Assembly: GCA_029448655.1 (NCBI GenBank)
Contig: JACCLO010000024.1
Location: 62,001 to 126,000, forward strand
Direction of reading: 5' to 3'
DNA: 64,000 nt
From: Wolfiporia cocos
Taxonomy: Eukaryota > Basidiomycota > Agaricomycetes > Polyporales > Phaeolaceae
Shown: positions 27,767-58,855 of the stretch, piece after piece
Position numbering within the stretch: the first letter of the stretch is position 1
Layout of the letters: the number at the start of each line of letters is the position of its first letter
Notes under the pieces: model-generated
Seen by the model: only the letters and a program-made list of their open reading frames with translations
The model's database searches: none
Told to the model about the DNA's origin: nothing
Position numbers and translations under genes: made by a program

Positions 27767-27913
27767 TAGAAATACTATCATCTTTTAACTCTGAAATAGA
27801 GTGCGAGTGTGATCTATAACGAAAGTTGCAGCTTTCAAAACCAAAACCCTTCTTAAGAATCTAAGACAATGAGTAACCGGAAACTAACATTCGTCACAAA
27901 CAGATTCACAAAA

Positions 27914-31637: not shown

Positions 31638-32836
31638 TGACTGCCGCGACCAGGCGGTTATGACGGTCGCGGGTCGGCCCACGACTTCCGCGACCAGACA
31701 GTTGTGACAGTAGTGGGTCGGCCCATGACCATCATGACTGGATGGTTGTGACGGTTGCGGGTCGGCCCACGACTGCTGTGACCGGATGGTTGTGACGGTT
31801 GCGGGTCGGCCCACGACAACCACGACCAGACAGTTGCGACGGTTGCGGGTCGGCCCACAACCATTGCGACTCCACGGTCATGACGGTCGCGGGTCGGCCC
31901 ACCAATGCCGTGACCAAACGATCGTGACGGTTGCGGGTCGGCCCACGACTTCCGCGACCAGACAGTTGTGGCAGTCATGGGTCGGCCCATGACCATCACG
32001 ACTGGATGGTTGTAACGGTCGCGGGTCGGCCCACGACTGCTGCGACCGGATGGTTGTGACGGTTGCCGGTCGGCCCACAACCATTGCGACTTGACGGTCA
32101 TGACGGTCGCGGGTCGGCCCACCACTTCCGCGACCAGACAGTTGCGACGGTTGCGGGTCGGCCCACAACCATTGCGACTCCATGGTCATGACGGTCATGG
32201 GTCGGCCCACCAATGCCGTGACCAAACGATCATGACGGTTGCGGGTCGGCCCACCACTTCCGCGACCAGACAGTTGTGATGGTCACTGGTCAGCCCACAG
32301 TCACCATGACCCAATGGTTGTGGGTGGGCCCACCAATGCTGCGATTTCCCCTTCATAGTCGATGACAATGTCAACTACGGGAAGGGACATGGTGATGGTT
32401 TGTTGATGAGAGCTGGCAAAAGAGTGATGACCTGTATTATTCTTGTATTGTTTGATGCATCAGTCACAGATTCCACAGCTTCAGAAGTTCCATTCCAAAC
32501 AGCCTCAAGACTTGGGATTGCCACAATCATGCTTCATGTGGAGTGTACAGATACATGCATCCATGGTGAGTTCTTAATTTATGTGTATCAGGTATCCCAA
32601 CACATCTACCAGATGCCAGGGATATCATCAAGGAAGCCATAGAAGACAACTCCCTCATGGTATTGGGCAAGACCATTAGTGGCCAGGGACACCAAAGGAG
32701 ATGGTGCAGAAGATATGCCTGTTAGGACACTGTCCAATTTCTCCATCCATGAATGGTACAGCCAGCAACTCATAGACATTGCTTGTCTCATGACTGTCAA
32801 CACAGAATTCCAGAATCCATGCATGTACAGGACTTT
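31638..32836. repeat. Left terminal inverted repeat with minisatellite
   Basis: About 16 units of ~43 bp (consensus around GTCGCGGGTCGGCCCACGAC plus CGCGACCAGACAGTTGTGAC) at 31638-32340, then ~0.5 kb of unique sequence to 32836. It matches the reverse complement of 54849-55625; a translated 80-residue stretch of the unique part differs at only about seven positions between the two ends. I do not regard the ORFs in it as genes. Confidence 0.92.
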
Positions 32837-33057
32837 GGGCCTTGTGTGGCCATACATGGATGATAATGAGGAAGGTGAGGACACCGAGATTAATCAGTTA
32901 CTTTGAGTGAAGCTGTGGAGGATACTCAACTTCAGCGTGCATTTCATCACCGATGCCACTGGGAAACTTCAAATTGATCCGTTGGTGTTCTTTCAAAGGC
33001 TGGATCTTGTTCAGAACCAATTTGGCAGCAGAAATATCTGCATCCACACACAGCACA
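32837..33057. other. Spacer inside the left end of the island
   Basis: Inner boundary of the inverted repeat to the next ORF. Nothing recognised. Confidence 0.4.
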
Positions 33058-33729
33058 CTACCAATGTTTTATTGCTTCATTACCTGCAACGGACCAGTGC
33101 ACAGAGGCTATAGCAATTGCTCTGAGAATGCTCCAAAGCGAGCTTACACAGGAAGATCTGGAATGGAGCAATGCAGTATGAAATTCAGTGGTTATGCTCA
33201 TTGTAGACAGGATCGAGACAGAAACAGCAAGCCTATGTAAGTGGCATACTAGAAATGCTGCACAAATAAAACATCCAACTGCAAAAGGCTCTTTCTCATG
33301 TACAGGTACAACCAGAACAAACTTGGCCACAAAAATATCTACATCCATGCACAGCATGCCTGGCCATATCACGGGGCATGCCACAGACCCAATGTGATGT
33401 GCCAATGAATGGTGCTTTAGCCACTCCTCCAAAAGGGCTACAATGACAGCTTGGGTATCATGTTGGGTCCAGCCATTTATGCAGTTCAATTTCCCATGCT
33501 TTGTGTGCTTTAGCACTACACTGCTCTTTTGAAGTGTAACGCGTGGCCTACCTCCCTCCGTAAGATCACATATTTCTTTGACAAGCCATCCAATGTCTAT
33601 GTCACCTTCACCGTCATTACCGTTGCCAGTGACGGCTACTGTCAAAGGAAGGGTGAATGCATTGTTCAAAAATAATGGCCAACTGGGGATCTGGGCTGCA
33701 GACATTACTTGAAAGGATGACCTTGACAT
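33058..33729 (-). CDS. Hypothetical cargo ORF, paralogue of 47236-47448
   Basis: A 223-codon minus-strand frame with no domain I recognise. The stretch after AAQIPSWPLFL (33700-33560) is clearly related at DNA and protein level to the ORF at 47236-47448 (VAQILGWPLLL...GNGNEGGG versus GNGNDGEG). In both places a GTCGCGG array lies just upstream on the coding strand. This suggests an exon, with the array in a 5' intron or 5' region. A GT donor near 33310 could end the exon. Could be a degenerate gene. Confidence 0.45.
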   Translation of the reverse strand: MSRSSFQVMSAAQIPSWPLFLNNAFTLPLTVAVTGNGNDGEGDIDIGWLVKEICDLTEGGRPRVTLQKSSVVLKHTKHGKLNCINGWTQHDTQAVIVALLEEWLKHHSLAHHIGSVACPVIWPGMLCMDVDIFVAKFVLVVPVHEKEPFAVGCFICAAFLVCHLHRLAVSVSILSTMSITTEFHTALLHSRSSCVSSLWSILRAIAIASVHWSVAGNEAIKHW

Positions 33730-33740
33730 CTGCGATCAGT

Positions 33741-33855
33741 CACCGCGACCTTCGCTACCGCCGCGACCACCGCGACCGCGACCACCGCGACCGCGACCAC
33801 CGCGACCGCGACCACCGCGACCGCGACCACCGCGACCGCGACCACCGCAGCTGCC
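33741..33855. repeat. GTCGCGG array 1
   Basis: CCGCGACCGCGACCA-type 15-bp units (C-rich on the plus strand), about seven copies with degenerate edges. Confidence 0.9.
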
Positions 33856-34361
33856 ACAACCACTGCAACTGTTCTGACAGGAAATATTACCTCTGGCAGT
33901 CCGATAACGTATATATAGTATTCTTAGCTGTGACATATGACTCGGACTTGGTTTGAACGAACGCACGTTATGCCTTGCTGAGGTATAGTAGGTCTTCTCG
34001 TCCTGCAGCCGTTTGCCTAGCTTCTGCGCTTCAAACGATGTAGGGATCTAGCCTGTCGCTCGAGAGATTTTTCTGCAAACTCACAAACACTTTCGCATTA
34101 GCTCGTTCCACCGCGGTGATGCTGCACGACATCTGGACGGCACTACCTTAACATCTGCTCTTGAAGTTGGGAAATCAAGCTCTGCGCGATCTCAGCTCTG
34201 ATGGTCGAGAATTATTGTCTTAGGGCAATCCTTGAAGATTTCGGGCTCAGGGCTGGTAAGTAAACTGGTACTTGACAACACTGAATTATATGCTTTGGAT
34301 ATTGGTACCGCTCCTGAAACTACCTTTATTGAGACCACCACCTCCACAACCTTCACTACCT

Positions 34362-34434
34362 CCGCGACCTCCGCGACCTCCGCGACCTCCGCGACTTCCG
34401 TGACCTCCGTGACCCCCGCAACCTCCGTGACCTC
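34362..34434. repeat. GTCGCGG array 2
   Basis: CCGCGACCT 9-bp units, about eight, the last ones decayed to CCGTGACC and CCGCAACC (C to T and G to A changes at CpG). It lies just 3' of the small minus-strand cargo gene. Confidence 0.88.
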
Positions 34435-34478
34435 TGTAGCTGCTTTGGCTACCCGGTTACATGTTACAATCGTAATAT

Positions 34479-36748
34479 TTAAAGCTGTTTACGCAATGCA
34501 GCAAGATCCTCCGAGATGAGGTTAATAGTTTGGCGATAGTTGGTTGACTGGACAGGAGAGATGCTCCCTTCATTTCCCCAGCCCTTGGGAGAATTCAGTT
34601 GTCACGGTTTTATGCCGTGGCATGGGGTCGAACCCCCGCACCCTAGTGTTGTAGTCACATGACCTCTCTTGCGTCGTAGTACAGTGGTCAATCGCCCCCA
34701 TAGCAGCGTAACCACTCACGTGTATAGGTCGCTCATTGCTTACGTACTATAGCACATGACTTAGATAGCGCACGGGCCCTTACTGTAGGGTAGGTAGTAG
34801 TGCGCGTCTCTACGTCTGAGCATGTATATAGTCTACTGCGCTGGGGCCTTACAGCCCCATGCTCGTTATTCTCGACGTCGGGGCTTGTCCCCCTGTATAC
34901 CACTCTACCTCTGTGTGCGCCCGCTGGCTTAGCCACCCCTTAGACCTGCTCGTCTGCGCCTCGACACTGCGGTGTGGGCTTATGCCCTAAGGACTTGCGT
35001 GTTAGGTTGAGGGCTACTAGGATAGCGGTACACAGGTATCACGGTATGAGGATATATCTGTGTCATAATAACGAGCATATCTTACCATCCCCCTTGACGT
35101 GAGTCCTACGTCTAGGGCTATGGGTTCTCCACTCCAATAGGTACGCGACACGGCGGGGGCACCTCTGCGTTCAAGCGAGGTCGGCATCAACTCGCCTGCC
35201 CCCCACATAAGTGTTGCTATGGCGACGGCTGCACAGACCGTACGCTATACCTGCGGAGGAGTGAGAGATGAAAGCCCCCCCTCGTTGTTGATGATAGAGG
35301 AGGACTAGTACGTATGTTCTTATAGAACGTACCCTCTGGGGGGCGGGACAGCCTTGATAACGACAGCATGACCTTTCGTGGGTAGGCGAAGCGCTTCGGC
35401 GTAACCCCACTTTCGACAAAGGTCAAGGCCGAACACCGGTACCTCAAGATTCGAAGATACTTCTCTAGTCACGACCGCCCTGGCATCGCGTCAGGGTACA
35501 AGCTCCAACAACCTCAAACTTCGGACTACGGCGGACCACACGACAGGCGACATACAGACCTAGGTGCCGTCTCTGTGGCCAGCGGCGGGTGGATTTACGC
35601 ACGACAGGCGATACACAGACCTAGGCGCCACTCCAGTGCCAGCCGGCAGACGGAACATGCCACATCAGGAGTTCAGCGAGGTCCACGGCATTTAGCCCAT
35701 GGAGCCATAATGTGTACGTGACCGTTTATGAGAATAGTTCTTCATCGGGACGATGAATCTTGACGGGAGGGTAATGTCACGGTTTTATGCCGTGGCATGG
35801 GGTCGAACCCCCGCACCCTAGTGTTGTAGTCACATGACCTCTCTTGCGTCGTAGTACAGTGGTCAATCGCCCCCATAGCAGCGTAACCACTCACGTGTAT
35901 AGGTCGCTCATTGCTTACGTACTATAGCACATGACTTAGATAGCGCACGGGCCCTTACTGTAGGGTAGGTAGTAGTGCGCGTCTCTACGTCTGAGCATGT
36001 ATATAGTCTACTGCGCTGGGGCCTTACAGCCCCATGCTCGTTATTCTCGACGTCGGGGCTTGTCCCCCTGTATACCACTCTACCTCTGTGTGTGCCCGCT
36101 GGCTTAGCCACCCCTTAGACCTGCTCGTCTGCGCCTCGACACTGCGGTGTGGGCTTATGCCCTAAGGACTTGCGTGTTAGGTTGAGGGCTACTAGGATAG
36201 CGGTACACAGGTATCACGGTATGAGGATATATCTGTGTCATCAGTCAAATATTGAGAAGAGTCGATGGAGAGGGGCACTCACGGATGCATGCTGGGGGTC
36301 CGTCCACCATCTAGGAGCATCCGCTCCTTGATCCTGCTTCCAGGTCCACCATGCATGCTCTTGTGCAAGACCTAACAGGTTTTCAGAAAGGGTGGTGGTC
36401 TTGGGAATGACGATGGCAGCAATATCGATGTGAGGTTCCTCGGACCAGATGGTGGCATCGGCAATGGCTTCGATGGTAGGAGGGATTTGAACGGATTCTC
36501 CCGCGAGCATCAGCTCTCCGAGAACGTTCCTGGCGGCAGTCTAAATCAAATGAGCTTTCTGACTAGACCAAAGGACATGGCAGACAAACCAGCTCCGTCT
36601 TGAGACCATTCTCCCAACGGATGAGATGGTCTTGGGTGCTAGGTTGAAGTGCATGGAGAGCAGACTCACACCTCCAGCTGATGATGGACAGCAGGTCACG
36701 GTTGACACTGATGTGCGCCTGCCTGAGCTGTTCCGGACTGGGGGACAT
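34479..36748 (-). CDS. Small three-exon cargo gene, unknown function
   Basis: Predicted 161 residues. Exon 1 36748-36590 starts MSPSPEQLRQAH, exon 2 36540-36283 contains SVQIPPTIEAIADATIW and WWTWKQDQGADAPRWW, exon 3 34547-34479 ends SEDLAALRKQL. All three exons are multiples of three and the introns have GT/AG ends (55 bp for the first). The second intron was about 90 bp until a 1641-bp LTR mini-element landed in it. It is transcribed divergently from the KDZ transposase, with 395 bp between the two ATGs. No domain recognised. Confidence 0.65.
34600..36240 (+). mobile_element. Non-autonomous LTR mini-element K (1641 bp)
   Basis: LTRs of 466 bp at 34600-35065 and 35775-36240 with one visible mismatch (near 34912/36087), and a 709-bp non-coding interior ending in a polypurine tract (GACGGGAGGG). 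Perfect TCAGT target duplication (34595-34599 and 36241-36245). It lies within an intron of a cargo gene. Same family as the solo LTR at 22580-24780. A TRIM/LARD-like parasite of a full-length helper not seen here. Confidence 0.95.
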
Positions 36749-37142
36749 TGTGGGTGAGAGGAGGAATGAGGACGATGAGTGTGGGAGGAGGCGGATGAAG
36801 AGGCATCTAGTATTCAATCGGTCACACTTGTCTACCGTGGTGGAAGTTCACAGTACAACTACCAAGATAGTGGCTTGCGCTGGGTGGCGGGATGCCACAG
36901 CACATGTGTGCCGGCCGCCGGTCCGAGGTTGTGGCATCCAAGACCATGGGTAAATATTCATCCTCCGTATCTCCCTCACGGTGGTCCCTGATCCTAAGAT
37001 TGCTCTCTCCCATCACTGCCTCCCGTCACTGCCTTTCTATTGTGGCCTCCCACCCCTGCTTCCCACCTCTGCTTCCCATTGTTGCTTCCCATTGCTTCTG
37101 AGCATCACCGGGTGCTGCACTCTTCTTTGCTGTGGAGCAAAG
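36749..37142. promoter_or_regulatory. Divergent intergenic region of the KDZ island
   Basis: Between the ATGs of the small cargo gene (minus) and the transposase (plus). The half next to the transposase is pyrimidine-rich, with repeated CCTCCC, CACTGCC and CTTCCCA words. It must hold both promoters unless one is further away; no defined factor site is identified. Confidence 0.4.
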
Positions 37143-40100
37143 ATGGGACCAAAGGGGCGCGTTATTATCCCCAAGGAGAAGGTGGTACATGTTGTGCGGA
37201 AGGAGCGACGCAACTTTCATGGAATAACTTATATTCCTATTCCAAAAGAACGGAACAGGCCACCTGAAGGCCCAAGGAACTCCTCTCCATCAAAGTCACC
37301 TGGCAAGGTCAGCAGCAATGTTGTTGAGGATTGTGGAGGAGGAATGGACTTTCTGCCTGTCTCGGAGAGTGTGCGGAGACAACAGTGTAAGGTGCGGTAT
37401 CCACTATGTTGAGGTGGAGGAAGTTGCAGCCATGGAGGTCGCGGTCGCGGTGGTCGCGGTCGCGGTGGTCGCGGTGGTCGCGGTGGTCGCGATGGTCACA
37501 GTTGTAGAGGTTGCAGAGGTTGCGGTCATGACAGCATCCATTATTCAGGCTGTAATTAATGTTTGGAATCATTTTAGACTCAGAATGATTTCCTACGGGA
37601 TTGGCTGCCCCATCGGGATGCATACCTGGCTATACTACTCGACTCTGATGCTCCACCAGACCCAAGGATATGCTCAAAGTGTGGCACACGGCAGGGCGAT
37701 TGGCAATGTCTAGAATGCTTTGGTCGACCGGTGACATGCATCGACTGCTGTCAGCTAGTGCATCTGCAGCATCCGTTCCATCGAGTCCAAAAGTGGGGCG
37801 GTCGCTTTTTTGTTCGCTCCTCACTACACGAGGTTGGGATCAAGCTTGAGCTGGGGCATGCTGGAAGGCGGTGTCCATATCACATTTCTGGTGAAACTCT
37901 GATGGAAATGGAGAAGGAGGGGGAGGACGACGACGACGACGACGACGACCAGGGGGCTGAGGCGGAGAGGGAGGAGTACACCTTGCGCACAGAATCAAGC
38001 CCATTCCGAGGCACCGGTCGGAACGGCAGCATGTTGACGGTCGTGGATATGACGGGCATTCACCATCTGGATGTCAACTGGTGTGGATGTGAAAACTGCC
38101 CACCACGTGACCAGCAGCTGCTTGCAATGGGACTGTATCCGGCGAGTACACTGCAGCCACAGACCGCCTTCACATTCCAGGTGCTTGATGACTATCTATT
38201 GACGAACAAAGAATGCAAGACGTCTGCCATGAGCTACTACAGCCGGCTCCGTCGGGTGACGGACAATGCTTTCCCACAGCGGGTACCGGTACGTAAATCA
38301 AATAATACCAGCATTCTAGGTGGAGATGACAATTGGATTACAGGATAGGTACTGGGAGCTGCTGAGGGTATCACGACAGTGGAGGAATCTAAAGTACCGG
38401 AAGTGGCATGGATTTGGACATGACCTTGGACGGAAGGTTGGCTCGGGAGATCTGGCAATCTTCTGTGCAGCCTGTCCACAGCCTGGGGTCAATCTACAAG
38501 ATGAATGGGAGCAGGATACAGACCAGTGCGTAACCCCTATTTTTGAAGGCCAAACCTCTGAGGTGCTCCAGATGGAAGTACAGCAGAAGCATGGTGATGG
38601 ACGGTAACTTTACTGCAGAGCACCTAAGAACAAGGCGGCCAGACGATGATGTGTGGCTGGGAGATGGGCATGGGTTCATGGTAGCAGAGGCGAGATACAA
38701 GATTCATTTGGCAGCGGCCAAGGAGAGCAAACAGGTGAAGCGATCTCACATGCCAGATAGAGATCATGGGGAAAGGGGCATTTCATGGTCGACAAAGGGC
38801 ATTGGGAGCACCTAGGCAGGGAGATTCGAGTTGTGCTTTGGGAGCAGGGAGTACTGTTGTGGCAGCTGTGGAGATTGCACAGAGTGAGGATGAGGTGGTT
38901 GCAGCCGCTGGCTGCTGAGGCTGCAGAGGTTGTGGCAGTCGCGATGGTCGTGGTGGTCGCGGTGGTCGCGGTCGCGGAGGTCGCGAATGCCGCGGAGGTT
39001 GTGGTCGCGGTGGTCGCGATGGTCGCGGTGGTCGCGATGGTCGCGGTGGTCGCGATGGTCGCGGTGGTCGCGATGGTTGCGGTGGTCGCGATGGTCGCGG
39101 TGGTCGCGATGGTCGCGGTGGTCGCGATGGTCGCGGTGGTTGTCGTTGCAGCTGTTGTTGCCTCTCGTGGTATTGGGCATGCTGACAATTGTTCTCAGAG
39201 GTCAACGTGCCACGATCATCGTGCTGTAAATCAGGCCAATGCAGACAGGCACAATCTGGAAGCAACTGGAATTGGGGCTGCTGCTTGTGGCCGTCACGGA
39301 TGCTTCTTTCCTCACTCGGTTGTTGACTTTCAGAAGGGGGAACGGTGAGCTATTTCCCAACCATCAGAGCTGTCACAAACCCCAGTTCCAGACAGATGAA
39401 CATGGATTATGTGCTCAGCCAGGCTGCGACATCCATGAAAGGTATGCGGAAGGTGCTGCTGATGTATGACATTATGTGCCAGTATCGGGTCCATCTTCAA
39501 GACCGTTTCCGTGACAATCCGTACTTGAGCATTCCAGATGGCCTCCAGATACAGGGAGGGATTGGGCAGTTTCATGTTCATGGACATCAGTCCGAGTGTT
39601 ATCCCAGATATTCCCCTGCATTCATGGAAGGTGCCGGACAGTTGGATGGGGAGGTCATCGAGACCTTGTGGGCTCCTCTCAATAACATTTCAGGAAGTAC
39701 AAGAGGCATGAGCACAGCTCACCGTAGGGAGGTCATTGACGACCACATGAACGACTCGAACTGGAAGAAGATGACCGGGCTGGGTGGGTAGAGCCTGTTG
39801 ACATCCACCGTGACCGTCTCATCATATGGCTGTGCAGTGCCCTCATTGGCCCGGAAGTGGAAGAAAGCCGTTGACGGGGTCATCAGCAGCACAAATGAGC
39901 TCAACGACCTGGAGACTACAGCAAGCGACACAAAGCTCGCGGAGTGGAGATCTGCTGCAGAAAATGCACAGACACGACGGCACCAAGAAATTTCTGCCAT
40001 GGACATTTACAATGTTCAGTTTGACAAGGGTGAGCAGTCGATCACCTCTATGCTGTCCGTGGTGTGAACACTTGGTTGCTTCCAGCTCCAACCAGGCAGG

Positions 40101-41281
40101 CCATCCAGCTGAAGATGATGAAGGAGGAGTCCCAAGGGAAAAAAGGGCGAGGTGTCACTGTATGGCTTTCAATGGGAATGAAGGCACAGGAGAAGCAGTG
40201 GGTTTTCATGTTGGATGGCTCTTGCCTTGGATGACACTTGACAGGCTGGAGCTTTGTGAGGTGTCAAGGCGGTTGCAAGGGAAGCGCATGCTGTCGGACC
40301 GGTTGAAACTTGAAGAAAAGCGACAGGTTCTACAACGTCAAATAGAGGCATTCGAGGCCAAGGCCCTTGGAGTCCTTCCTGGAATAGATGAGGAAGATGG
40401 GGGCCGCGATATGTACAGGGGCGATGATTGGATGGATGAAGAAGAAGATGATGAGCTGGATGCAGAATTGGTAGATGGTGAGGAAAGTGAGGACGGTGAT
40501 GAAGAGGTAGAAGCCAAGCCAGAGGAGTCGTGCCTTTCATTACCTTCACAGCTCGGGGCATCAGCAATCGAGAGAAGAGGATGGGGGCACATCGCTGAGG
40601 TGGAGCTACAGCTACGGCAAGGACAGGCCAATGATGCCCTGCATGAGATCCGAGTGGCGATCGGACACAAGTCATTCCTGTTCCGGAACAGAGTGAGGCC
40701 ATCCAACAGCCAGCAAACAAAGACACGGGCATGGGGCGAAGTGCAGGTGGTGGCCAAGATGGTGGCTCGACACGCACGGGTCTATACACAGGCAAGACGG
40801 GCAATGGAACGGCTCGGGGCCAACGGGGATATACTGGCAAAGTACAAGGTTCTCAAGCCACAAGACCTCAAGGCAATCACTCACATAATGGACAACACAG
40901 TCCAGGGCATGCACAACCAGCCCATGTCCTGGATCTGGGCGGTGGATGTGGCAGGGGACACCAGCCAGTCTGACTGGTTGGCTGAATGTGAGTCTCCAAG
41001 CTGTCCTGGTCAGCACGTCCACCTATTGATGTGAGCTGAAAGTGCAACGGGTGAACTGGCTAAGGACCAAGGCAAGAAATGATAGATGGAAAGAGGAGCA
41101 TGCCATCGTGCTGGCAGAGATGAATTGGACGGTGAGATATTTTGAGAAGAGGGCGAGGGATTGGCAGGAGATAGCAGATGGAACAGCCCAACGAGGAGCA
41201 GAGGCATATGCTTTTCAACAGCAGGCAATGTGGGTAGAGATGGCTCAGTCTGCAGCTAGCACATTCAAGGGCCACACATAA
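37143..41281 (+). CDS. KDZ-family transposase with CxC2-type cysteine cluster
   Basis: Ten exons, all phases consistent: 37143-37391, 37578-38288, 38344-38525, 38572-38734, 39199-39344, 39392-39783, 39838-40029, 40086-40197, 40245-40987 and 41043-41281, giving 1042 residues without an internal stop. N-terminal part with CSKC...WQCLECFGRPVTCIDCC and then a CGCENC motif: the CxC2 cluster known to accompany KDZ transposases. The core follows, with DRYWELLRVSRQW, CPHPG-like CPQPGVNL, DGNFTAEHL, RAVNQANADR, the strongly conserved GCFFPHSVVDFQKGER, YDIMCQY, HVHGHQSECYPRY and ETLWAPLN, then a long helical C-terminus. Two long introns (37392-37577 and 38735-39198) each hold a GTCGCGG array. It is presumed to catalyse DNA cut-and-paste of this island. 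Confidence 0.93.
37430..37535. repeat. GTCGCGG array 3, in transposase intron 1
   Basis: GGTCGCGGT and GGTCGCGA units, G-rich on the coding strand, wholly inside the intron 37392-37577. Confidence 0.9.
38935..39150. repeat. GTCGCGG array 4, in transposase intron 4
   Basis: About 20 GGTCGCGGT/GGTCGCGAT units in alternation (18-bp higher-order period), wholly inside the 464-bp intron 38735-39198. The other transposase introns are about 45-56 bp. Confidence 0.92.
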
Positions 41282-41544
41282 ATAGGAAAAGCCATGAGGA
41301 GTTTCACTTGTATATGAGCACCGGAAAATACATCCAAAATGAGTCTGAGAACCAGGGATCATGAAACAAGGTCTCAGCTTCAACCAAAGCAGATGTGGCT
41401 TTCAATCTCAATTCGCATAACATAAAGAAGCCTTGGTCAGGACATGTACATAAGGAGAACAGTTCTGTATACATAGGCACCATATCAACCTCTACTGCTA
41501 CTAGAATGACCTGCATCGCAGCCACAGAGATATCACCATGGATC

Positions 41545-41865
41545 TCCACGACCCCCGCGACTGCCGCCCGCGACCCTCACGACCCTGTTTCACGACCCTT
41601 GCGACCACCGCGACCTCCTTCCGCGACCACCGCGACCACCGCGACCACCGCGGCCACCGCGACTGCTGCAGCCCCGCGACTGCCACCCGCGACCCTCGCG
41701 ACCTTGTTTCGCGACCCTCGCGACCACCGCGACCTCCTTCCGCGACCACCGCGACCACCGCGACCACCGCGGCCACCGCAACCTTCGCGACCGCAACCTT
41801 CGCGATCCTCGCGGCCTCATTTCGCGACCTCCGCGATCTCCGTGACCTCCCTCTGCGACCTTCAC
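41545..41865. repeat. GTCGCGG array 5, between transposase and TET/JBP gene
   Basis: CGCGACCAC/CGCGACCTC units, C-rich on plus, with a ~126-bp higher-order duplication (41596-41680 and 41722-41806). It sits in the tail-to-tail intergenic space. Translations on either strand are treated as spurious. Confidence 0.88.
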
Positions 41866-43193: not shown

Positions 43194-43224
43194 GATTGGA
43201 TATTAATTCAGTGGAAAAGCAGCA

Positions 43225-43292
43225 GGGTTGCAGAGGTCGCGGAGGTCGCGGAGGTCGCGGAGGTCGCGGGTGGAAGGGGTCGCGGAGGTCGT
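43225..43292. repeat. GTCGCGG array 6, upstream of TET/JBP gene
   Basis: GGTCGCGGA units (about six), 30-100 bp upstream of the TET/JBP ATG. Confidence 0.88.
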
Positions 43293-43731
43293 GGAGAGAG
43301 GCAGCGGTGCGCATTGCAAACACGCTGCTGCCATGCACACCAATGCTCTCTCGCACTCTCGCGCGTTCCGTCCACAAATGTGGTGCACAGTGTCTACAAT
43401 GTGCACTAATCTCGATCTGGGCCGAATGCGGTTAGCGCGCACCAGAGCACCGGTAGCGCCAGCCTGAAACAGCATTGTATTGCCCATTTCGGATTAGCCG
43501 CCGAGTCGAATCTCCGATCGCACTCCATACGGTTAGCGCCACAAGTCGGCCCGGGACTATCAGGGCAATCTCATTGGTTTACAGATAATGCCCATGTGCT
43601 CCAGTGCCTCTGGCCGAGTTGGGGAGTCTGTTAGCTGTTGTCGCCTCTGCCCTGCTCTCAATTTACAGCTGCCTGTGATCTGCTTGTGATCCTCCTGCAT
43701 TCTCCTTGCCCTGCTACATTCCTGTAATACA

Positions 43732-46700: not shown

Positions 46701-47002
46701 AAGGGGATGTCACAGATGCTAGGGCAGAGGTTGTTGAGGGGGCAGGTAGGGTTGGAGATGGATCTGGAGATGCTGATGCTCAGGAAGAAGGCTCGGGTGG
46801 AGGGGAAGGAAGCAGTGCATCCACAGCACAACTGGGAGCCAAACGTCGGAGGGATATGGTGCGGATGAAAGGCGCAGTCGAGCCAGCACCGAAACGGCAG
46901 GCAACCCACAGGCGTGTCAAGCATGCTTCCAGATCGGACACTGCAAGGTCTCCATCACCTCGCCGACTTAGATCTAAAAGGAAGGAAGGACACCATACAT
47001 AG
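43732..47002 (+). CDS. Large cargo gene with RGG tract, unknown function
   Basis: Five exons with matching phases: 43732-44279, 44549-44659, 44707-44999, 45052-46085 and 46136-47002, about 950 codons. The N-terminal region has helical charged segments (KLSMWRLWAKEHPDEVK, ELTKEQQEEFEG) that faintly recall an HMG-like fold; no firm match. Exon 4 encodes a tract of roughly 26 RGG repeats made by the 9-bp array; the C-terminus is basic (SPSPRRLRSKRK), suggesting nucleic-acid binding. Intron 1 (269 bp) holds array 7. Two in-frame TGA codons (46259-46261 and 46379-46381) interrupt exon 5, so this copy is probably inactive or has unseen introns. A relic of the same exon lies at 5558-5703. Confidence 0.7.
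44302..44480. repeat. GTCGCGG array 7, in cargo-gene intron 1
   Basis: CGCGACCTC, CTCGCGACT and GATCGCGACC units, C-rich on plus, inside the intron 44280-44548. Confidence 0.88.
45525..45760. repeat. GTCGCGG array 8, coding (RGG)n
   Basis: About 26 nearly perfect GGTCGCGGA units, in frame with the cargo gene. The purest array of the window, implying recent expansion or homogenisation. Confidence 0.95.
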
Positions 47003-47235
47003 ATGTGGCATGTTGTTTGCTTGGTAGTTGGTGATTAGATCGCCTTGCTACTTAAATATTTGATGTGCCTAATTGCTGTACTGATCATAGAGAATACACT
47101 TTATCCTTACAATTATATGCAGACTGGTTTCATATCAGCAAGAATGGAGACAGGTTGGGGGTTTTGCTGTTAGAACAGTGTGGCAATGTGAGATCTGTGG
47201 ATATATAGACCCACTGGTGGTATGACACTGCCATG

Positions 47236-47448
47236 CTATACCAAACTGCTCCAAGCATCCATGTGAGAGATATCAAGCCGGGCCCTTCTCATCATGAAAC
47301 AAAAGCAAATCCATAAGACTTCAGCATTTGCCTGGTTTCCTCCACCCTCATTGCCATTGCCGACAATGGCTAGCATTGAAGGAAGGCTGAATGAATAGCT
47401 CAGCAGTAATGGCCAACCTAAGATCTGGGCCACAGACTTTGCTTGCAA
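47236..47448 (-). pseudogene. Partial paralogue of the 33058-33729 ORF
   Basis: Short minus-strand frame related to 33560-33700. It ends quickly and is preceded on its coding strand by array 9. Likely an exon of a decayed duplicate. Confidence 0.45.
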
Positions 47449-47454
47449 GAACTA

Positions 47455-47605
47455 TCGCGACCGCTGTGACCGTTGCGACCTCTTTGTGAGGGTCCTGAGG
47501 GTCGCGACCACCACGACCACGACCTCCGCGATCATGACCTCCGCGGCTCTCGTGACCTCCGCGACCGCAACTCTCGCGACCTTTGTGACCGCAACACTCT
47601 TGACT
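47455..47605. repeat. GTCGCGG array 9 (degenerate)
   Basis: CGCGACCGC, CCGCGAT and CTCGTGACC variants, with many CpG to TpG/CpA differences. Confidence 0.82.
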
Positions 47606-48270
47606 CCTGTAAGGCTCAAGCCATATAATGCACATACCAAGTATATGTTGTTCTTTATGAACACTATATACATGTATTTATAGGTGGCTGAGTACATGGT
47701 ATATACATGGTATATAAAATGGTATACAGTTACTGTGAGTGCATTCAATATGTCTATGAGTAGACCTTCAGTAGACATATAATACTAATGGGATGCGGAT
47801 GAGAAAGCCATGTTGTTCTTGCATGTTTCTTCAAGAACTCCCAAAAGGTAGTGTGACAATCTATTGGCAATCGATTGATCTTTGCTATTGAATGCTGTAT
47901 CAATAATGCCTTACTTTGTGTAGAGCTTCAATGAGCTTCCATTTGAGATCTCATGTTTAAGTGACAACTGACATCTGTGGTGAAGCCACAGATAAATAAG
48001 CTAGTGACAGATAGTGTATCTGACTGAAATATGTGTTCTACAGATTGTATGGTGCGACAATATATAAGACTTGGATATGATTATAGCTACACGACCACAT
48101 GGATGTTGGGATATAATTTACAAACTCCAATTTACCCCCTTGTTCAGTAGAAAGTAAGATCTAATCAACGCTATACGTTGCCACATAGTGACCGCAACAT
48201 TAGTCTCATGCAGATGAGGTCCCCATCATCTTGTGCATTTAGTGCAATTTCCTGGACGTTCCTGCTGCTA
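47606..48270. other. AT-richer spacer, no gene recognised
   Basis: Contains short TATATACATGGTATATA repeats near 47690-47730. No coding sequence seen. Confidence 0.5.
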
Positions 48271-49647
48271 CAGTCCCAGACAAGCAAACTCCGCCAACTT
48301 GAGTAATGAATTTTCTATGCTCCCTAGGGTCTTAAAAATAGTATAATCATGTATAATCATGCATTACTTGATAAAGAGTTGCAAGTTGTACGAGCTGATT
48401 CTCAAAAAAAAACCATTCTTAGTTTTTTGAGTCCAAAAAATTGGCAGTGACCTCAAAATAAGCGCTAAAATCTCGGAAAATATACCAATCGACTCCTTTT
48501 CGTTGTCGCAATCTGATTGCATAATCAGAAATGGATTAATACTCCTATGTCATCCTCCATAAATCAATTATGGTGTGATAAGCACTACTACTGTGCATCA
48601 AACACAGCTTAGGGCGACATCCTAAACAGCCCAAAAATACATCTGGCCTTTGAAATCATACTTGTCAGGCATCTACTGCTCATTTGAACCCAATACAATG
48701 CAATCATTCTGCTGGAGATATGCTTGTGTGATCCTGTGTTCTGAGCCCTAAAGGCAACTAAGGTACTGAAGCTCAGAGTGATGTCAAAGAGGAAGATACA
48801 ACGAGTGGCACTGGAGTGGGTGAATGTAGTGATTGGGAAGAGCTTGACAATGAAGATTTCAGAACTTATCTTGCACAATGGGTTGAAGATGATCCAATGG
48901 ATGATAAATCATGCTGCTCTTCCCCAAATGCTCTCTGGGCATCCAACATGAATGGTTTGGATGGAGGCAAGCAGCGCTCACAGTGAGACACATTTATTCC
49001 CATGTCTAACCCTGTCACTACCCTTAGGGGACTTCCTCAGAAGATGACAACACTGGCAGGTGAGCCAAAAGGCCTAAAACCAGTACTTGAAGGATAGATG
49101 TCAGCAAGCTCTGTGCAAAATGCTCCACAGTCTGTTCTTTTGAGAGCAAGAACTGTTGCATGGCACAGCTGCTAAGTCAGCAAGACAACTTCATGAATTA
49201 GCCATCAGTGCTTGAGACAATGATTCAAGAAGCCAGGCTATTGTGTTTTCTTGCCCAAGTTCCATTGTGAGCTTAACCCAATAGAAATGATCAGACATTT
49301 TATAAGTTGTTCCTGGCTAAGTTCTTATCAACTTGGGCTGATGGAGAAGGCAGCAGCATGGGCTGTGTGGGAGCAAAAAATGGCACCCCAGGTTTCTGAA
49401 CAGGCAATTCAAGCTATAGAATTGAGTATGGAGTAGTCTACATATGTTTTTTTTGTTGGGAGCCATTGGGCACCTATATGTTTTTTGGGGCGAAAATTTG
49501 GCGGTGACCCAAAAGTTGTGGGAAAAATATGAATGGGGCGGATTTGGATGTTTTCAGGCCTCCAGAGTTCAGATATGCACTCAGAATGTAGTAAAATCCT
49601 CTCAGAGATGCTGTACAAAAATTGCGAAGTTTGCTTGTCCGGGACTG
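48271..49647. mobile_element. Tc1/mariner-like transposon relic
   Basis: 1377 bp with inverted ends CAGTCCCAGACAAGCAAACT and (right, reverse complement) CAGTCCCGGACAAGCAAACT, flanked by TA dinucleotides (48269-48270 and 49648-49649) as expected for this superfamily. Inside, broken frames contain the DDE-transposase hallmark FLPKFHCELNPIEM near 49255-49290 and other transposase-like bits around 48840-48960. Many stops: inactive. Inserted into the KDZ island, it contains no GTCGCGG array. Confidence 0.88.
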
Positions 49648-49649
49648 TA

Positions 49650-50065
49650 GTATGGCCATGGAATGTTGAATGCTGACTGCATGTCAACTCCTCATGCCAG
49701 CTATGTGCTGATACCTATGGTTCACTGAAAATGGAGATGATCTCTATGTCCATCTTGTAAAACAGTGGCCATGCTCATATACCATATGTTGACTGATTTT
49801 TCCTACATGTATATCATATGGCCGGAGCCTTAGACTCCTGCAACCATGAGTTCTGTAACCTCTTCCTGAGGGCCATTGCAATTGCTTCATCTGCTGGGAT
49901 GGCATTTCATTTGAGATTCCCCACTTATTGTGCTCACAGAGCCAGATGAAACCATTCCATTTAGTTTGTGGTACCCAAATGCAAAACCATATAATACATG
50001 AAAAATCCATTGAGATTGTGGTACACAACTACAAAACTGTATGATACATCCAAAGACCTTGTATT
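49650..50065. other. Spacer, no gene recognised
   Basis: Holds a short imperfect direct repeat (GTGGTACCCAAATGCAAAACC... and GTGGTACACAACTACAAAACT... near 49968-50050). Nothing else seen. Confidence 0.45.
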
Positions 50066-50991
50066 CTACTGACTCTTCCACAGCCTGTGGCGGACCGAGC
50101 TGTAATAGGAAGGGGGAGTACCATCACTCATGTCATAAAGAGAATCCATGTTTTCCTGCACTCTGTCCAGTATCTTGTATCTAGCAACTTCTTTATGTAG
50201 ATGATGGATGAGAATAAGCCAAGGAGATTTGCAGAAATAGCTCACCATCCTCAGCCACAAAGCGGACCCGTTTTCTGCCTGAACTTGAGGGCCCTGGAGC
50301 AGATTCATCACCCAGGTCCGCATACTTATCAATGGCCCGTGTCTTCCGCTTATTCACTTTTCGTGTCTGGCGCATTGCAGATTTTACTGTTCTTGACGGA
50401 GCCGCGGCCACGGCGGTCTCGGCTGAGGTTGATGGCAGCAGAACAGCCGGGTCGAAGCTCCATTCTGGATAGTCCGGCTTTGAGGTGGCGGTCTCGGCAG
50501 TCACGGTTGAGGTATTGTGGAGGAGAACTGATGGATCAAAGTTCCACTCTGGATATTCTGCACGTGAAGCGGGTGCTGTAGTTGTTGCGGATGCCGCGGT
50601 GGCGAGGGTCGCGGAGGTCGCGAATATTGCGACCGCGGAGGTCGCGGTCGCGGAGGTCGCGGTCGCGGAGGTCGCGGTCGCGGAGGTCGCGGTCGCGGAG
50701 GTCGCAGTTGAGGTCGCGGGCAGCAGCACCGCTGTGTTGAAACCCCAAGCTGGATAGTGTGGGTTTTCTGTGAATATAGAAGTTTGAAATAGAAAGTTTT
50801 GAGCAAAAAAAATATGTACCTTCCTGCATCTCAATGTCTTCATTTTCTTGAGGTTCTTGACTGTTTTGTGTGGGTGATGCCCCTTCTTCCAGTAGGGAGT
50901 CCCGCACTGCACTGGTGCGGAAGTGTAAGAACTTGAAGGGCATCGGGTACTGGGGAACTGGAGAGGGACTGAGCTGTTTTGATGGGTTCAT
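50066..50991 (-). CDS. Three-exon cargo gene with YPxW-F-LL repeats
   Basis: Exons 50991-50820, 50767-50246 and 50190-50066 with consistent phases, about 272 residues. Starts MNPSKQLSPSPVPQYP. The middle has three diverged copies of a YPxWxFxxxVLLPxTS module (about 50760, 50555 and 50470). The first is separated from the next by an alanine/threonine/serine tract encoded by array 10. The C-terminal third is basic (RQTRKVNKRKTRA and GRKRVRF), so a nuclear role is possible. No known domain. Antisense to and upstream of the 51333-54645 gene. Confidence 0.68.
50590..50722. repeat. GTCGCGG array 10, coding (ATS-rich on minus)
   Basis: GGTCGCGGTCGCGGA 15-bp units, G-rich on plus, read by the minus-strand gene as an Ala-Thr-Ser tract. 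Confidence 0.9.
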
Positions 50992-51332
50992 GTTGGGGTG
51001 AGGGTGGGCGGGAAAGAATATAGTCGCAGCAACAAGATATAATTGATACGGGTAGTTCCATAGAAGAACAGAAGCACAGAAGGGCAGCGTGAGAACAGAA
51101 GTGATCATGTGCTACGTAGACGCCGGCGCACTAATGAAATGTCCCGAAACGGAGATTAAGCGCTTCTCGGGCCGGCTCCCGGATGTGCCATGAGGCCGCG
51201 AGATATATATCAACAGCTCGCGACTCGCGACTCCGACGGCTCAACTTCGAACCATCACCCCACTTTTCGTCTCGCGCTCGCACTCGCTCCGCTCCTCCCA
51301 TATCCACTAGCTTTGAAACCTCACAAATCACT

Positions 51333-54300
51333 ATGTCAGACAACCAGTTGATGAACACCGCCAACAGAATGATCGCCCGTGCAGTTGCGGCGCTCAGGGC
51401 GGCTCCCGAGAGCATGGAGGGGGAGGACTATACCCAGTGGCAGACCAAGTTCATGGAAGAGCTTGTAAGTGATATCATTCTCTGAAACCATTCAAGGAAG
51501 CTGAGGCATGACCCTTCAGGCATTCAACATGGGAAACTTTCCCTATAAGGTATTCGAGCTCGGGTACAGGCTACCCGAGCTATACGGCAGCATGGTGGCG
51601 GAGTATACACAGGTGAGGAATGATGGGGAGGAATTCAACAAGATTCGTGTCCACGAAGGCGACACGAGGATTGCGAGTATCAAGAATCTTGCGCCAACAG
51701 TAGACCCCACCAGACCCCTCCCAGTTGTGGAGGACTTGGGGCCTAACCAGTGGTGGACAGCAGGTATGTAGTAACTCAAAAATTTTCTTATTTACAATAA
51801 TTGAGAATGTTCGCAAAAAAGACAATACATTGACTGAGGCAGAGGGCAGCTCGACCGCCCAGCATGCAACCAAAAAGAGAGGTCGGGAGGACTCGGACGA
51901 GGAGAGCACGGAGAAGGAGGGTGGAAAGGACGATGGGTTGGGAGGAGATGAGGAGGAGGATCATGGTCGCGGAGGGAGTGAAGATGACCAGCAAGGTCGC
52001 GAGACCAGTCGCGAGCCTCGCGACAGTCGCGAGCCGAGTCGGGAGCCTCGTGATCGTCGCGAGCGGAGTCGCGGGCCTCGCGGCAGTCGCGAGAAAAGTC
52101 GCGACACTCGTGGCAGTCGCGAGAAAAGTCGTGACACTCGCGACCGTCGCGAGCCAGGTCGCAAGTCTCGCGACACCGCGACTTCGACAACTGTCGTGAG
52201 CCAGACACGGTCCAAGTTGGGAACAAGGCCACCAAAGCGCCAGCGATCCATCCACCAGTCGCCATCAACTGCCCGACAGTCGTCGGACTCGGAGTCGGAC
52301 AGCCCCCCCCCAGCTCGCCATAGCCGTTCAAAAGGCTCCAACAAGGGGAAGAAGGCATCAAAACCCTCTGTGCTCAAAACTCCTAAGCCCAGGCCTAAGT
52401 TCTCAGATGAGGCAAAGCGCTCAGTAAGATCTTCGTCGGCTTGCAGATTTTTTGCTAACCTGATTTTCAGGTCTTACAATGTATAACATGCAGGACAGCA
52501 CCAACCGTATGCACTATCGACACCAATATACGAGCAAGATGTGAGCGCTGCACTACTAAAAGTCTTAAGTGTAGTCTTGTCCCCAAGGAGATTGAAGATG
52601 GAGAATTCGCCGCTATCACGGGGCAAGAAGTCTACGTGATTTCCCGCAAGTTTCAGAAGACGTATGAGGATGAAGTCAGCCGACCAGACAACTTTAATGA
52701 CCTCAAGGTGGTCTGCTACAACGCAGAGAAAAATGATTTCATTTTTGATAAGAGGACTCTTCTTTCTCAGAAGGAGAAGAAGCAGATCGCAAAAATTGGT
52801 GAGTCAGCATGCCATTATTTCTCATTTGGTACTGATTATATTATAGTGGCGGAAAAAAATGCTGCTACCAAGGCTGGACACAAGAAGCGGTCAACCCGAG
52901 AAAAGCCAATGGAGAAAGATGCCAGCGAATCGGAGGAGGACGAAGAGAACGAGGAGGATCAGATGGGCAGGGAGGAGGAGGCGAAATCAGGGGGGGCTGA
53001 AACTGACGGTTCAGTTGCAGCCGCATTCCAGAGACTCCGGCACGGCGACGACACGGAGATGGATGGGGAGGGGGAAGCGGGCCCTTCGGCTGGCCCTTCG
53101 GCTGGTCCTTCTGCTGGCCCTTCAACCACACGACTGGCCGACAAGGGCAAACAGGTGCCCCGACGGTCGACGAGGGTGGCCGAGCGTGAGCGTCGTGAGG
53201 CCTCACAAGCTCCTCAAGCAAGTGTCCATGTTCAGGCAGAGCAGCCATCAGGTGAGCAAAAAAAAAACTTAATTACTCTATTCTAATAAATAGCCTTCAC
53301 ATATCTATATATAGCGGACAACGAGGGCGGGTACAGTCGCTACCGCAGCCAGGTGGGGGACGACCGGGACGAGCTGTTGAAGGCGGTCACTCAAATGAGT
53401 GGCATGCTTCACCAGCTCGTCCGTAAAGTGGACGTCCTCCAAGAGACTGTCCATGAGATGCAGGTGGGTCACGTAGGTCTGCAGGCGCAGCTTGAGGCCC
53501 TGCGACAGGTGGCGATGGGGGTGCCTCTCGCGACCTCCACGACCGTGGCCCCTGCACCTCTCGCGACCTCCGCGACCGCGGTCCCTTCGCTCCCCGCACC
53601 TCTCGCGACGCCGCCCCCCGTGTCTCTCGCGACGCCACCACCCGTGCATCTCGTGACGCCACCTGATGCTCCTCACATGCCCGATATGACTCTCGCGACC
53701 TCCGCGACCGCGGTCCCTTCGCTCCCGGCACCTCTCGCGACGCCGCCCCTCGTGTCTCTCGCAATGCCGCCACCCGTGCATCTCGTGACTCCACTTGATG
53801 CTTCTCACGTGCCCGATGTGACTCTCGCGACCTCCGCAACCGCGGCCCCTGCAACTCTCGCGATCTCCGCGACCGCGGCCCCTGCACCTCTCGCGACCTC
53901 CGCGACCGCGGCCCCTGCACCTCTCGCGACCTCCGCGACCGCGGTCCCTTCGCTCCCCGCACCTCTCGCGACGCCGCCCCCCGTGTCTCTCGCGACGCCA
54001 CCCCCCGTGCATCTCGTGACGCCACTTGATGCCTCTCATGTGCCCGATGTGACTCTCACGACCTCCGCGACTGCGGCCCCTGCACCTCTCGCGACCTCCG
54101 CGACCACGGTCCCTTCGCTCCCCGCACGTCTCACGACACTGCCCCCCGCACATCTCGTGACACCGCCACCCATGCATTCCGCAACGCCACCTGATGCACC
54201 TGACGCGCCCAATGTGGCTCTCGTGACCACCGCGACCGTGGCACCTGCGCCTCTCGTGAACTCCGCGACCGCGACCCCCGTGCTTTCTGTGACTGGTAGC

Positions 54301-54645
54301 TCCATGACATCGTCCACACCAGCTTCTGTGGTCCCTCCAGCCTCTGAACATGCACCCATGAACGATGCAACTGACGACACTGTGCACAATGAAGACGTCG
54401 GCCCCACTGTAAGTACCACCATTCCCCTCTCACTCTGCCCGCACATTCTAAAGTCGATCTACGACTGGTCAGGACATTTCAATGGAAGATGATGACACCC
54501 ACTTGTCATCGCAACTGGATTCTCCTGTTGCCAGTGGGCAAGGTGAGCATTGGTACTCTGAGGAGGCTTAAAAAGGGGAATGCTCACCACCAATATCTTT
54601 ACAGGTGATGAGGACACAGATATGGATATGGGTGGGTCTGACTGA
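51333..54645 (+). CDS. Large cargo gene with cysteine cluster, unknown function
   Basis: First exons 51333-51464 and 51520-51763 (VFELGYRLPELYGSMV), then a long charged exon. The exon after ~52471 holds a cysteine cluster (QCITCRTAPTVC and ARCERCTTKSLKC) resembling a zinc-binding CxxC pair repeated. This is followed by an acidic/basic region with four GPSA repeats (53085-53125), a coiled-coil-like DDRDELLKAVTQMSGMLHQL segment and a long repetitive PLATSATA region. It ends DEDTDMDMGGSD after a small last exon at 54605-54645. Introns show GT/AG ends but not all boundaries are certain. A nuclear, DNA-associated protein is a reasonable guess only. Confidence 0.65.
51962..52185. repeat. GTCGCGG array 11, coding (SREPRD-type)
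   Basis: GTCGCGAG/CTCGCGAC 15-bp units (SREPR/DSREK) in the large cargo gene; the reverse strand also stays open. Confidence 0.88.
53527..54285. repeat. GTCGCGG array 12, coding (LATSATA-type)
   Basis: CTCTCGCGACCTCCGCGACCG-based units in a ~45-bp to ~160-bp higher-order arrangement across about 760 bp, C-rich on plus. Confidence 0.88.
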
Positions 54646-54848
54646 GCAGTTCCAGTCAGCATACAACTGTATTACCTTTTGTTCATTGTATAAATGTATA
54701 ATATATGATTTTTTCATTGCTTCATTGTGAGGAGAAAATCAATTTGAACCAGACAAAGAAATAAACTGGAATGTAAGGCAACAGTTTTTGCTTCATCTTG
54801 GAACAGGTAAACTCAATGACATTTCAGCTGCTGCAGGCACAGCAGTCA

Positions 54849-55728
54849 GGTGTACATGTATGGATTTTGGAATTCATGTTGACAGTCATGAGACAAGCAA
54901 TGTCTATGAGTTGCTGGCTGTACCATTCATGGATGGAGAAATTGGACAGTGTCCTAATGGGCATATCATCTGCACCATCTCCTTTGGTGTCCCTGGCCAC
55001 TAATGGTCTTGCCCAATACCATGAGGGAATTGTCTTCTATGGCTTCCTTGATGATATCCCTGGCATCTGGTAGATGTGTTGGGATACCTGATACACATAA
55101 ATTAAGAACTCACCATGGATAAATGTATCTGTACACTCCACATGAAGCATGATTGTGGCAATCCCAAGTCTTGAGGCTGTTTGGGATGGAACTTTGGAAG
55201 CTGTGGAATTTGTGACTGATGCATCAAATAATGCAAGAACAATGCAGGTCATCACTCTTTTGCCAGCTCCCATCAACAAACCATCATCATGTCCCTTCCT
55301 GTAGTTGACATTGTCATCAACTATGAAGGGGAAATTGCGGCATTGGTGGGGCGACCCACAACTGTCACAATCATTTGGTCACAGCATTGGTGGGCCGACC
55401 CGCAAGCATCACGACCGTCAAGTCATGATGGTCGTGGGCCGACCCACAACTGTCACAACCGTCTGGTCGCGGAAGTCGTGGGCCGACCCACGACCGTCAT
55501 AACCATCCGGTCACGGTGGTTGTGGGCCGACCCGCAACCGTCACAACCATCTAGTCGCAGCAGTCTTGGGCCCACCCACAACTGTTGCAACCGTCTGGTC
55601 ACAGAAGACGTCGGCCCACCCGACGGTAGGCCGGACGGTTAGGGCATGGGCCGACGACCGGCTGACCTGAACCGTTAGGGGTTGGTACAAGCCGGTTGAC
55701 CTGAACCGTCACCTACTGTCACTGAAAG
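54849..55728. repeat. Right terminal inverted repeat with minisatellite
   Basis: Reverse-complement partner of 31638-32836: ~0.5 kb unique part (54849-55352), then about six minisatellite units to 55625. The outermost ~100 bp (GACCTGAACCGT occurring twice, CACCTACTGTCACTG) has no counterpart at the left end. Confidence 0.9.
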
Positions 55729-58113: not shown

Positions 58114-58152
58114 TCGTTCCATTAGGGACAATGAAACCTGAAGAGGGGGTAA

Positions 58153-58850: not shown

Positions 58851-58855
58851 GGTGT

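Follow-up and report, generated by a model that had tools for sequence, protein, structure and literature searches.

How do fungal transposons that carry a TET gene aim the encoded enzyme at themselves? Such transposons, of the KDZ group, were reportedly described from Agaricomycetes by Iyer et al. in 2014. The question is raised anew by a 64,000-nt stretch of the Wolfiporia cocos genome (the window; C17:62001-126000), in which a long terminal repeat (LTR) retrotransposon is interrupted by an island bearing a KDZ transposase gene, a TET/JBP dioxygenase gene and further genes that we call B, D and E. C17 is a 204-kb contig in an assembly of 64,431,438 bases and 76 contigs, the longest being C1 (5,289,744). 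The island is almost certainly one copy, now damaged, of a Kyakuja-like KDZ transposon that measures 24 kb and moves by cut and paste; it carries an AG-type TET/JBP gene and companion genes and is studded with tandem arrays built around the heptamer CGCGACC. For studying the question there are, in one genome, copies that are nearly identical, one that is truncated and whose TET gene is broken, relatives of greater age, decayed fossils and a candidate tag, together with published bisulfite data for what is very probably the same strain.

The family is a mobile unit with 7-bp target-site duplications (TSDs) and its own gene set, and it has gone through a recent burst. A complete copy on C12 measures 24,008 bp tip to tip, has the TSD ACTTACC on both sides and is 99.22% identical to the window copy over aligned bases. 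The initial annotation had allowed that other copies might place the cargo outside the inverted repeats; the C12 copy holds the same genes between inverted ends and its TSD. A copy on C8 is flanked on both sides by CAACCAT, giving matching TSDs in two of the five copies with both presumed flanks read. Identity among the window, C12, C23 and C75 copies is 98.35-99.41%, counted over aligned bases. Recent activity of the family is better shown by this identity than by the divergence between the LTRs of the interrupted retrotransposon, from which recent movement of the island had been deduced; LTR divergence gives an upper bound only, in substitutions, and was dropped as a date in favour of copy-to-copy identity. 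Genome-wide, the 23-base tip pattern (up to 2 mismatches) has 39 matches, and none when read backwards. The independent insertions are fewer than the tips because the flanks on C27 and C20 repeat those on C8 and C1. As a separate observation, contigs C27, C20 and C41 repeat flanks of C8, C1 and C7 (L022/L039, L029/L037 and L047/L051), either as segmental duplicates or as redundant contigs.

The window copy itself is incomplete. That the island lies between two halves of one pol gene was correctly recognised at the outset: the two host LTRs (25122-25819 and 58153-58850) differ at 5 of 698 positions (99.3% identity), the number first estimated, GGTGT stands on both sides (25117-25121 and 58851-58855), and both pol halves belong to one retrotransposon insertion. 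The junctions, placed initially at 31638 and 55728, are corrected to 31627/31628 and 55733. At 55733 the copy ends on a border common to ten right tips, the window's included, beyond which the sequences diverge. The left junction falls inside a 44-bp array and is not a transposon end. The family left tip, 5'-GAGCCCATTCAG..., is missing; the window copy aligns from base 606 of the C12 stretch, in which the element begins at 142, and so lacks ~464 bp of left tip. At C11 (L005) and C4 (L008) pol continues for 376 bp to CCTCGAG and then meets an intact left tip. Deletion is the simplest explanation for the absence from the window copy of this tip, of its TSD copy and of the 376 bp of pol. The long inverted ends reported earlier survive as 486-nt arms, 95% complementary, in addition to 44-bp subterminal arrays. 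Moreover, the island is not one transposon from 31638 to 55728, as 34600-36240 is a separate LTR element, a third nesting layer that only the window copy has among the four aligned. Because its left tip is lost and its TET reading frame broken, the window copy is unlikely to be an autonomous source. The initial view of a large, gene-carrying TET/JBP KDZ transposon inside a young LTR retrotransposon is supported; its description as a dated and bounded example is not, since on the left the copy ends in a deletion scar, insertions occupy this target at C4, C11 and C23 too, and the LTR divergence is no more than a bound. Three further copies share this left pol target (L015/L005 on C11, L008 on C4 and L062-L064 on C23); beyond the right end, C11 and C23 differ.

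Final gene models had splice sites placed by eye and were compared with CcTET of Coprinopsis cinerea and with W. cocos proteins; a home-made splice-aware scorer found B and E, missed TET and split the transposase. The 1042-aa transposase, which had looked intact, is open through all 10 exons, and a hidden Markov model search with Pfam gave KDZ at E 2.1e-53 and CxC2 at E 1e-27. It has 437 relatives; the 120 matches listed come from W. cocos, Sparassis, Fomitopsis, Ganoderma, Lactarius, Suillus, Pisolithus, Coprinopsis and other mushrooms, and several of them are named CxC2-like cysteine cluster KDZ transposase. The TET/JBP gene (Pfam E 5e-14) is, as first described, arranged tail to tail with the transposase gene. 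Its last-exon open reading frame (196 aa) aligns over residues 29-170 with CcTET (E 1.4e-17 for PDB 7vpn and 1.3e-17 for 8jkk), and the HxD motif (HRD), the downstream His, the equivalent of Asp337 and a Ser at the Gly331 position are kept. The roles of CcTET Asp337, Gly331 (Gly/Ser) and HxD are taken from PMC12730594. Judged by sequence, the gene is a predicted AG-type TET/JBP. The gene is present as annotated, but the window copy has an in-frame TAG at codon 18, found in this one alone of 20 genomic TET matches (starting at residue 1 and spanning at least 68 residues); the codon is a sense codon in C12 and C23. Of the other 19 matches, 17 list one TGA, as does the window match, and two list none.

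Across the genome, TET exon 4 occurs at 90% identity or more at 22 loci, and B, D and E (at 82% or more) accompany it at 13 of these (C1, C8, C9, C11, C12 twice, C17, C19, C23, C27, C67, C75 and C76) and not at nine; loci were clustered by hand, and the counts are lower bounds. Older relatives that retain some of these genes lie at C4:2.22 Mb and C23:2.36 Mb (TET 57/53%, B 44/40-46% and E 35/31% identical) and at C12:3.81 Mb (E 53%, D 63%, TET 50%). A second type of right end, at C75:1.79, C4:2.84 and C67:1.94 Mb and C15:64 kb, carries E and D in reversed order and orientation, at 54-57% and 71% identity respectively. The cargo gives the impression of a gene set conserved as transposon machinery, not of captured host genes or a chance load. 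At L074 (C75:1790001-1797000) inverted D and E genes are 57-71% identical to the window's and the adjoining TET and B genes 98%, an arrangement that points to module exchange between subfamilies.

TET-carrying Kyakuja elements, as described by Kojima in 2025 (PMC12730594), resemble this family in their KDZ transposase, an AG-type TET/JBP near CcTET, a 7-bp TSD and a TG-3' end, and Polyporales is a reported host order, as here. The Laccaria Kyakuja families have, in the account given there, CA..TG ends and no terminal inverted repeats (TIRs), whereas the ends here read GAGCCC...GGTGTG, with long TIRs and 44-bp arrays. A size of ~24 kb, at least three further genes and the CGCGACC arrays also go beyond the described Kyakuja. 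Zisupton and Dileera belong to the KDZ group too, but their TSDs are given as 8 bp (same source). The window family is therefore best called Kyakuja-like: the 7-bp TSD fits, whereas the ends and TIRs, which may not be diagnostic of the lineage, do not. TET-carrying Kyakuja elements are already known; what we add is the proposal that CGCGACC is a recognition site of the family. A literature search returned no paper on KDZ elements with a minisatellite or on sequence-specific TET demethylation in fungi, although the family itself may already be listed; papers returned for Kyakuja with tandem repeats concerned nematode, oyster and alga genomes only.

The arrays were overlooked in the initial annotation. 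Twelve of them, whose basic units measure ~9 to 33 bp, are spread over introns, exons and spacers (Table 1), besides the 44-bp arrays of the TIRs; the units differ (9 to 44 bp) and the CGCGACC core is common to them, on both strands. The 118 GTCGCGG sites of the element are distributed over sequence outside modelled genes (45), the B exon (26), transposase introns (16), E exons (13), the left TIR (9), the B intron (6), the TET exon (2) and the right TIR (1). GGTCGCGG is found 105 times in the 22,465 bp of element (nested insert left out), while the rest of the window (39,894 bp) has it once. The 17-mer GGTCGCGGNGGTCGCGG has 736 genome-wide matches against 1 for its backward control; among the matches listed, 98 of 100 fall in four loci of this KDZ family on C1 and C4, the remaining two being on C3. 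Against 100 dinucleotide shuffles, intact CGCGACC was observed 139 times in the element (shuffle mean 1.9), 45 times in L074 (0.8) and 21 times in L072 (1.4), the latter two agreeing with 200 shuffles; in the control window, 1-25000, there were 4 intact cores (3.3) and 27 decayed forms (24.4). The tag is rare outside such elements where checked. L071, L072 and L073 are independent relatives (31-63% protein identity); L074 is no independent witness, since the copy that it terminates on the right has TET and B genes at 98% identity to the window's, and part of its gene E reaches 88%. L073 retains 3 intact cores and has 157 forms differing by CpG transitions only (shuffle mean 12.6, largest 21), and L071 has none intact and 33 such forms (mean 10.3, largest 17). 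The CpG observed/expected ratio (O/E) is 0.40 in L071, 0.35 in L073 and 0.88 in L072. The core erodes at CpG in the dead-looking copies, L071 and L073.

A similar footprint is found in the young copies. Among 157 singleton changes in the four aligned copies (arrays and TIRs left out), 59 are CpG transitions in 1,143 CpG columns (5.2%) versus 37 C>T/G>A changes in 7,789 other C/G columns (0.48%), so that CpG changes ~11 times as often as other C/G; C75, the most divergent copy, contributes 33 of the 59. The corresponding ratio in a retrotransposon control is ~2.7 (36/382 CpG versus 37/1079 other), an imperfect control because retrotransposons pass through RNA. Outside its arrays the element has a CpG O/E of 0.52, compared with 1.29 inside arrays and TIRs; the host retrotransposon stands at 0.96 and window 1-24000 at 0.99. 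Within arrays, CpG versus other change per cell is 0.19 versus 0.08-0.09 in the left TIR and 0.087 versus 0.02 in the intron array at 38938; the perfect 9-bp and 15-bp arrays have no changes, which fresh slippage alone can explain. Bisulfite data for W. hoelen SS20, very probably the same strain, place 93.48% of 5-methylcytosine in CG and report methylation of 15.09% on transposons versus 1.28% on genes (PMC9503964). Moreover, 5-hydroxymethylcytosine and 5-formylcytosine are reported in transposons and at TET genes of Laccaria and Coprinopsis (PMC8889193). Given the CpG-biased change and the published CG methylation of transposons, the copies were very likely methylated in their line of descent despite the TET gene.

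We favour an explanation in which the KDZ transposase moves the element and TET counters host methylation, the view held for this kind of element (PMC12730594). Host CpG methylation would silence copies, and TET would counter that silencing. CGCGACC would be the recognition site of an element-encoded protein, whether the Zn domain of the transposase or the product of B, D or E, and its recognition would tie transposition, anti-silencing or both to DNA of this KDZ family. The system would then work like VANDAL/VANC of Arabidopsis, but with an oxidising enzyme on board. In VANDAL elements an element protein, VANC, binds the motif and lowers methylation, and the likeness lies in a short family-specific motif, in variable tandem repeats at intronic, intergenic and terminal positions and in an element that fights methylation (PMC5735166); here too a family-specific tandem motif is spread through the element. 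The differences are that binding and demethylation have been demonstrated for VANC in that work whereas the W. cocos element is known from its anatomy, that the transposon and proteins are unrelated, that only the W. cocos element has arrays in coding exons and a TET gene, and that VANC targets vary between related families (as the same source has it) whereas the CGCGACC core is common to divergent relatives. The data suggest, without proving it, that the element tags itself and thereby evades being silenced by its host. The whole explanation, with the arrays as putative recognition sites, has in our judgement an even chance of being right. A stronger version would be self-addressing anti-silencing, in which CGCGACC tags are read by an element protein, TET oxidises methylcytosine there and the family demethylates mainly itself, so that loss of TET or reader would lead to deamination of the tags as in the fossils; this we consider improbable, at something like one chance among several.

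Several results count against the favoured explanation. The arrays themselves erode at CpG in the fossils L071 and L073. The right TIR of the window copy has a single GTCGCGG core, and its units have no CpG excess (0.042 versus 0.083 per cell), so that the core is less likely to act at both ends; for these two reasons our confidence in the whole explanation, arrays as recognition sites included, was lowered from somewhat better than even. CpG O/E is uneven by region (D 0.95, E 0.94, B 0.76, KDZ 0.68, TET 0.48 and 47605-50190 0.24). Genes B, D and E gave no credible Pfam domain, making a DNA-binding role for them a guess. No significant purifying selection was found among the four recent copies, in which observed/expected nonsynonymous plus nonsense changes were 20/19.7 for KDZ, 9/12.0 for TET (P 0.09), 0/1.3 for B (two changes) and 19/17.3 for E. 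The copies on C76, C11 and C23 have no matching TSD and unlike sequence beyond the two presumed ends, as expected if parts were exchanged between copies. Lastly, the arrays could have spread by slippage and exchange alone.

This last point is the core of an account that falls only a little short of even odds: the element is an ordinary TET-carrying Kyakuja, the arrays are functionless ancestral minisatellites spread by slippage and recombination, and TET acts without sequence guidance. Array lengths that differ between copies, perfect repeats of the kind left by fresh slippage, the unlike flanks of C11, C23 and C76, which point to exchange between copies, and the decay of fossil arrays at CpG all fit it. 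What it explains less readily is that the 7-mer core, and not the unit, is what the arrays share, even in the relatives at 31-63% protein identity, that this core occurs on either strand and in places as different as introns, exons, spacers and the left TIR, and that it is near chance in window 1-25000. Overall, slippage with exchange is almost as good an account as recognition sites. The other possibility of a wholly different element, a Starship-type giant that mobilises cargo serving its host, has very little to recommend it. It would suit the size, the presence of several unknown genes and the spacing between tips, which runs from 24 to over 50 kb when neighbours are taken as pairs, but long copies may hold nested insertions, and 13 of the 22 loci have one and the same set of four genes. 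The enzyme of Starships is a tyrosine recombinase; here the KDZ transposase, TIRs and TSDs explain movement, and no search for a tyrosine recombinase was made.

A separate matter is how the island came to lie on C17. It may be a duplicate of, or a product of exchange with, an older retrotransposon-plus-KDZ locus represented on C4, C11, C17 and C23 that was later truncated, with no fresh transposition here. The pol target CCTCGAG is the same at all four loci; over 486 bp of upstream pol the window has 1 difference from L008 and 2 from L005, compared with 5-12 from eight other pol copies; and the outer flanks at C11 and C23 are unlike. The shared target and the closer pol flanks at C4 and C11 are why the window copy may be such a product; the earlier claim of recent movement holds for the family and is in doubt for this copy. 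Against this, the C17 retrotransposon has its own 5-bp direct repeat on both sides, and reuse of a preferred target is an alternative. Moreover, L070 (C23) gave no match, L068 (C11) matches 23892-24637, outside the LTR, at 91.3%, and L069 (C4) matches interior 25547-27500 at only 95.6%, a value that brought our estimate for this reading down from somewhat better than even to even. The outer flanks of C4, C11 and C23 show no simple segmental duplication. Lower identity on the left side of the C23 copy had been considered a sign of exchange and was dropped, as 1-kb windows confine the drop to the 44-bp array region. An assembly join at one or both junctions is a slim prospect. The left junction has neither transposon tip nor TSD, C17 is a contig of 204 kb, and the small contigs C20 and C27 repeat C1 and C8 flanks; but the LTRs of the two halves have the same 5-bp flanks and near identity, the right junction is a perfect tip followed by target-site sequence, and the probable source genome was built from ~330x PacBio reads (PMC9503964).

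Table 1. Features of the window, in window coordinates.
Feature	Position	Strand	Basis
TET-carrying KDZ transposon copy, left end truncated	31628..55733	+	copy comparison, borders
Left TIR: 44-bp subterminal array (to ~32298) and inner inverted repeat 32317-32802; outermost part missing	31628..32802	+	
Right TIR with 44-bp array 55346-55621; intact tip ...CACTGAAAGGTGTG	54877..55733	-	repeats, tip comparison
Surviving 7-bp TSD copy CCTCGAG	55734..55740	+	same 7 bp precede intact left tip at C4, C11, C23
Host Ty3/gypsy LTR retrotransposon	25122..58850	+	LTRs and borders aligned, Pfam
Nested 1,641-bp LTR element (467-bp LTRs, 1 mismatch; TSD TCAGT)	34600..36240	.	alignment
KDZ transposase, 10 exons, 1042 aa, open; CxC2 and KDZ domains	37143..41281	+	splice model, Pfam
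TET/JBP dioxygenase, 4 exons, 387 codons; TAG at codon 18 in window copy	41862..43193	-	Pfam, PDB, copy comparison
Cargo gene B, 448 aa modelled, then in-frame RGG-type array; 3' end may run to ~47002	43732..46091	+	
Cargo gene D, 3 exons, 272 aa	50066..50991	-	four-copy comparison
Cargo gene E, 8 exons, 964 aa, Cys-rich cluster and array-encoded repeats	51333..54645	+	
Gene F, incomplete: candidate exons 36670-36748, 36377-36510, 36283-36333	36283..36748	-	ab initio only, weak
Array, left part; longer in C12 copy	33741..33848	.	
Array, left part	34335..34434	.	
Array, transposase intron 1 (37392-37577)	37437..37497	.	
Array, transposase intron 4 (38735-39198)	38938..39140	.	
Array between convergent transposase and TET genes	41553..41850	.	
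Array between divergent TET and B genes	43233..43296	.	
Array, gene B intron (44280-44536)	44302..44471	.	
Perfect 9-bp array, in frame in gene B	45526..45757	.	
Array downstream of gene B	47505..47604	.	
15-bp array, gene D exon; in-frame length differences between copies	50634..50705	.	
30-bp array, gene E exon 3	51996..52175	.	
33-bp array with higher-order repeats, gene E exon 6	53524..54270	.	

The multi-exon cargo genes first noted are present (D and E in Table 1). TET and B, and likewise D and E, form divergent pairs, and the transposase and TET genes converge. The first three exon joins of B match the W. cocos protein P0001, and the C terminus of E matches P0007. D is open in four copies at 272, 307, 279 and 257 aa, the differences being due to the exonic 15-bp array, which varies in length but stays in frame. 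B and E have 6 and 4 homologues at E 1e-3 or better, all W. cocos MD-104 proteins at 66-95% identity, in a search that needs shared 5-residue words and so misses remote relatives. Iyer et al. reportedly found a divergent HMG domain in 2014, which we had expected in B; Pfam did not bear this out, and the HMG-like label was dropped. Literature listings name none of the cargo genes, no gene-by-gene search having been made. The W. cocos models P0004 and P0005 seem to translate through an array-bearing intron, and public annotations may therefore contain intronic array-encoded peptide. The first exon of F was placed by its offset from the C12 copy; if real, the gene is divergent to the transposase.

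An AT-rich stretch at 47605-50190 is present in all four aligned copies, with the low CpG O/E given above, and near 49.2 kb there is what may, judged by eye from its motif, be a DDE-transposase-like remnant. The host pol encodes protease, reverse transcriptase, integrase and chromodomain by Pfam and ends in a dUTPase domain that follows the chromodomain at the C terminus (55726-58113; Pfam 9e-33). Partial LTR-like copies directly outside both host LTRs (24914-25121 and 58851-59894) suggest nested or tandem insertions. Downstream of the host element, at 60942-62586, two identical 300-bp stretches lie 1,345 bp apart and perhaps mark another short LTR element.

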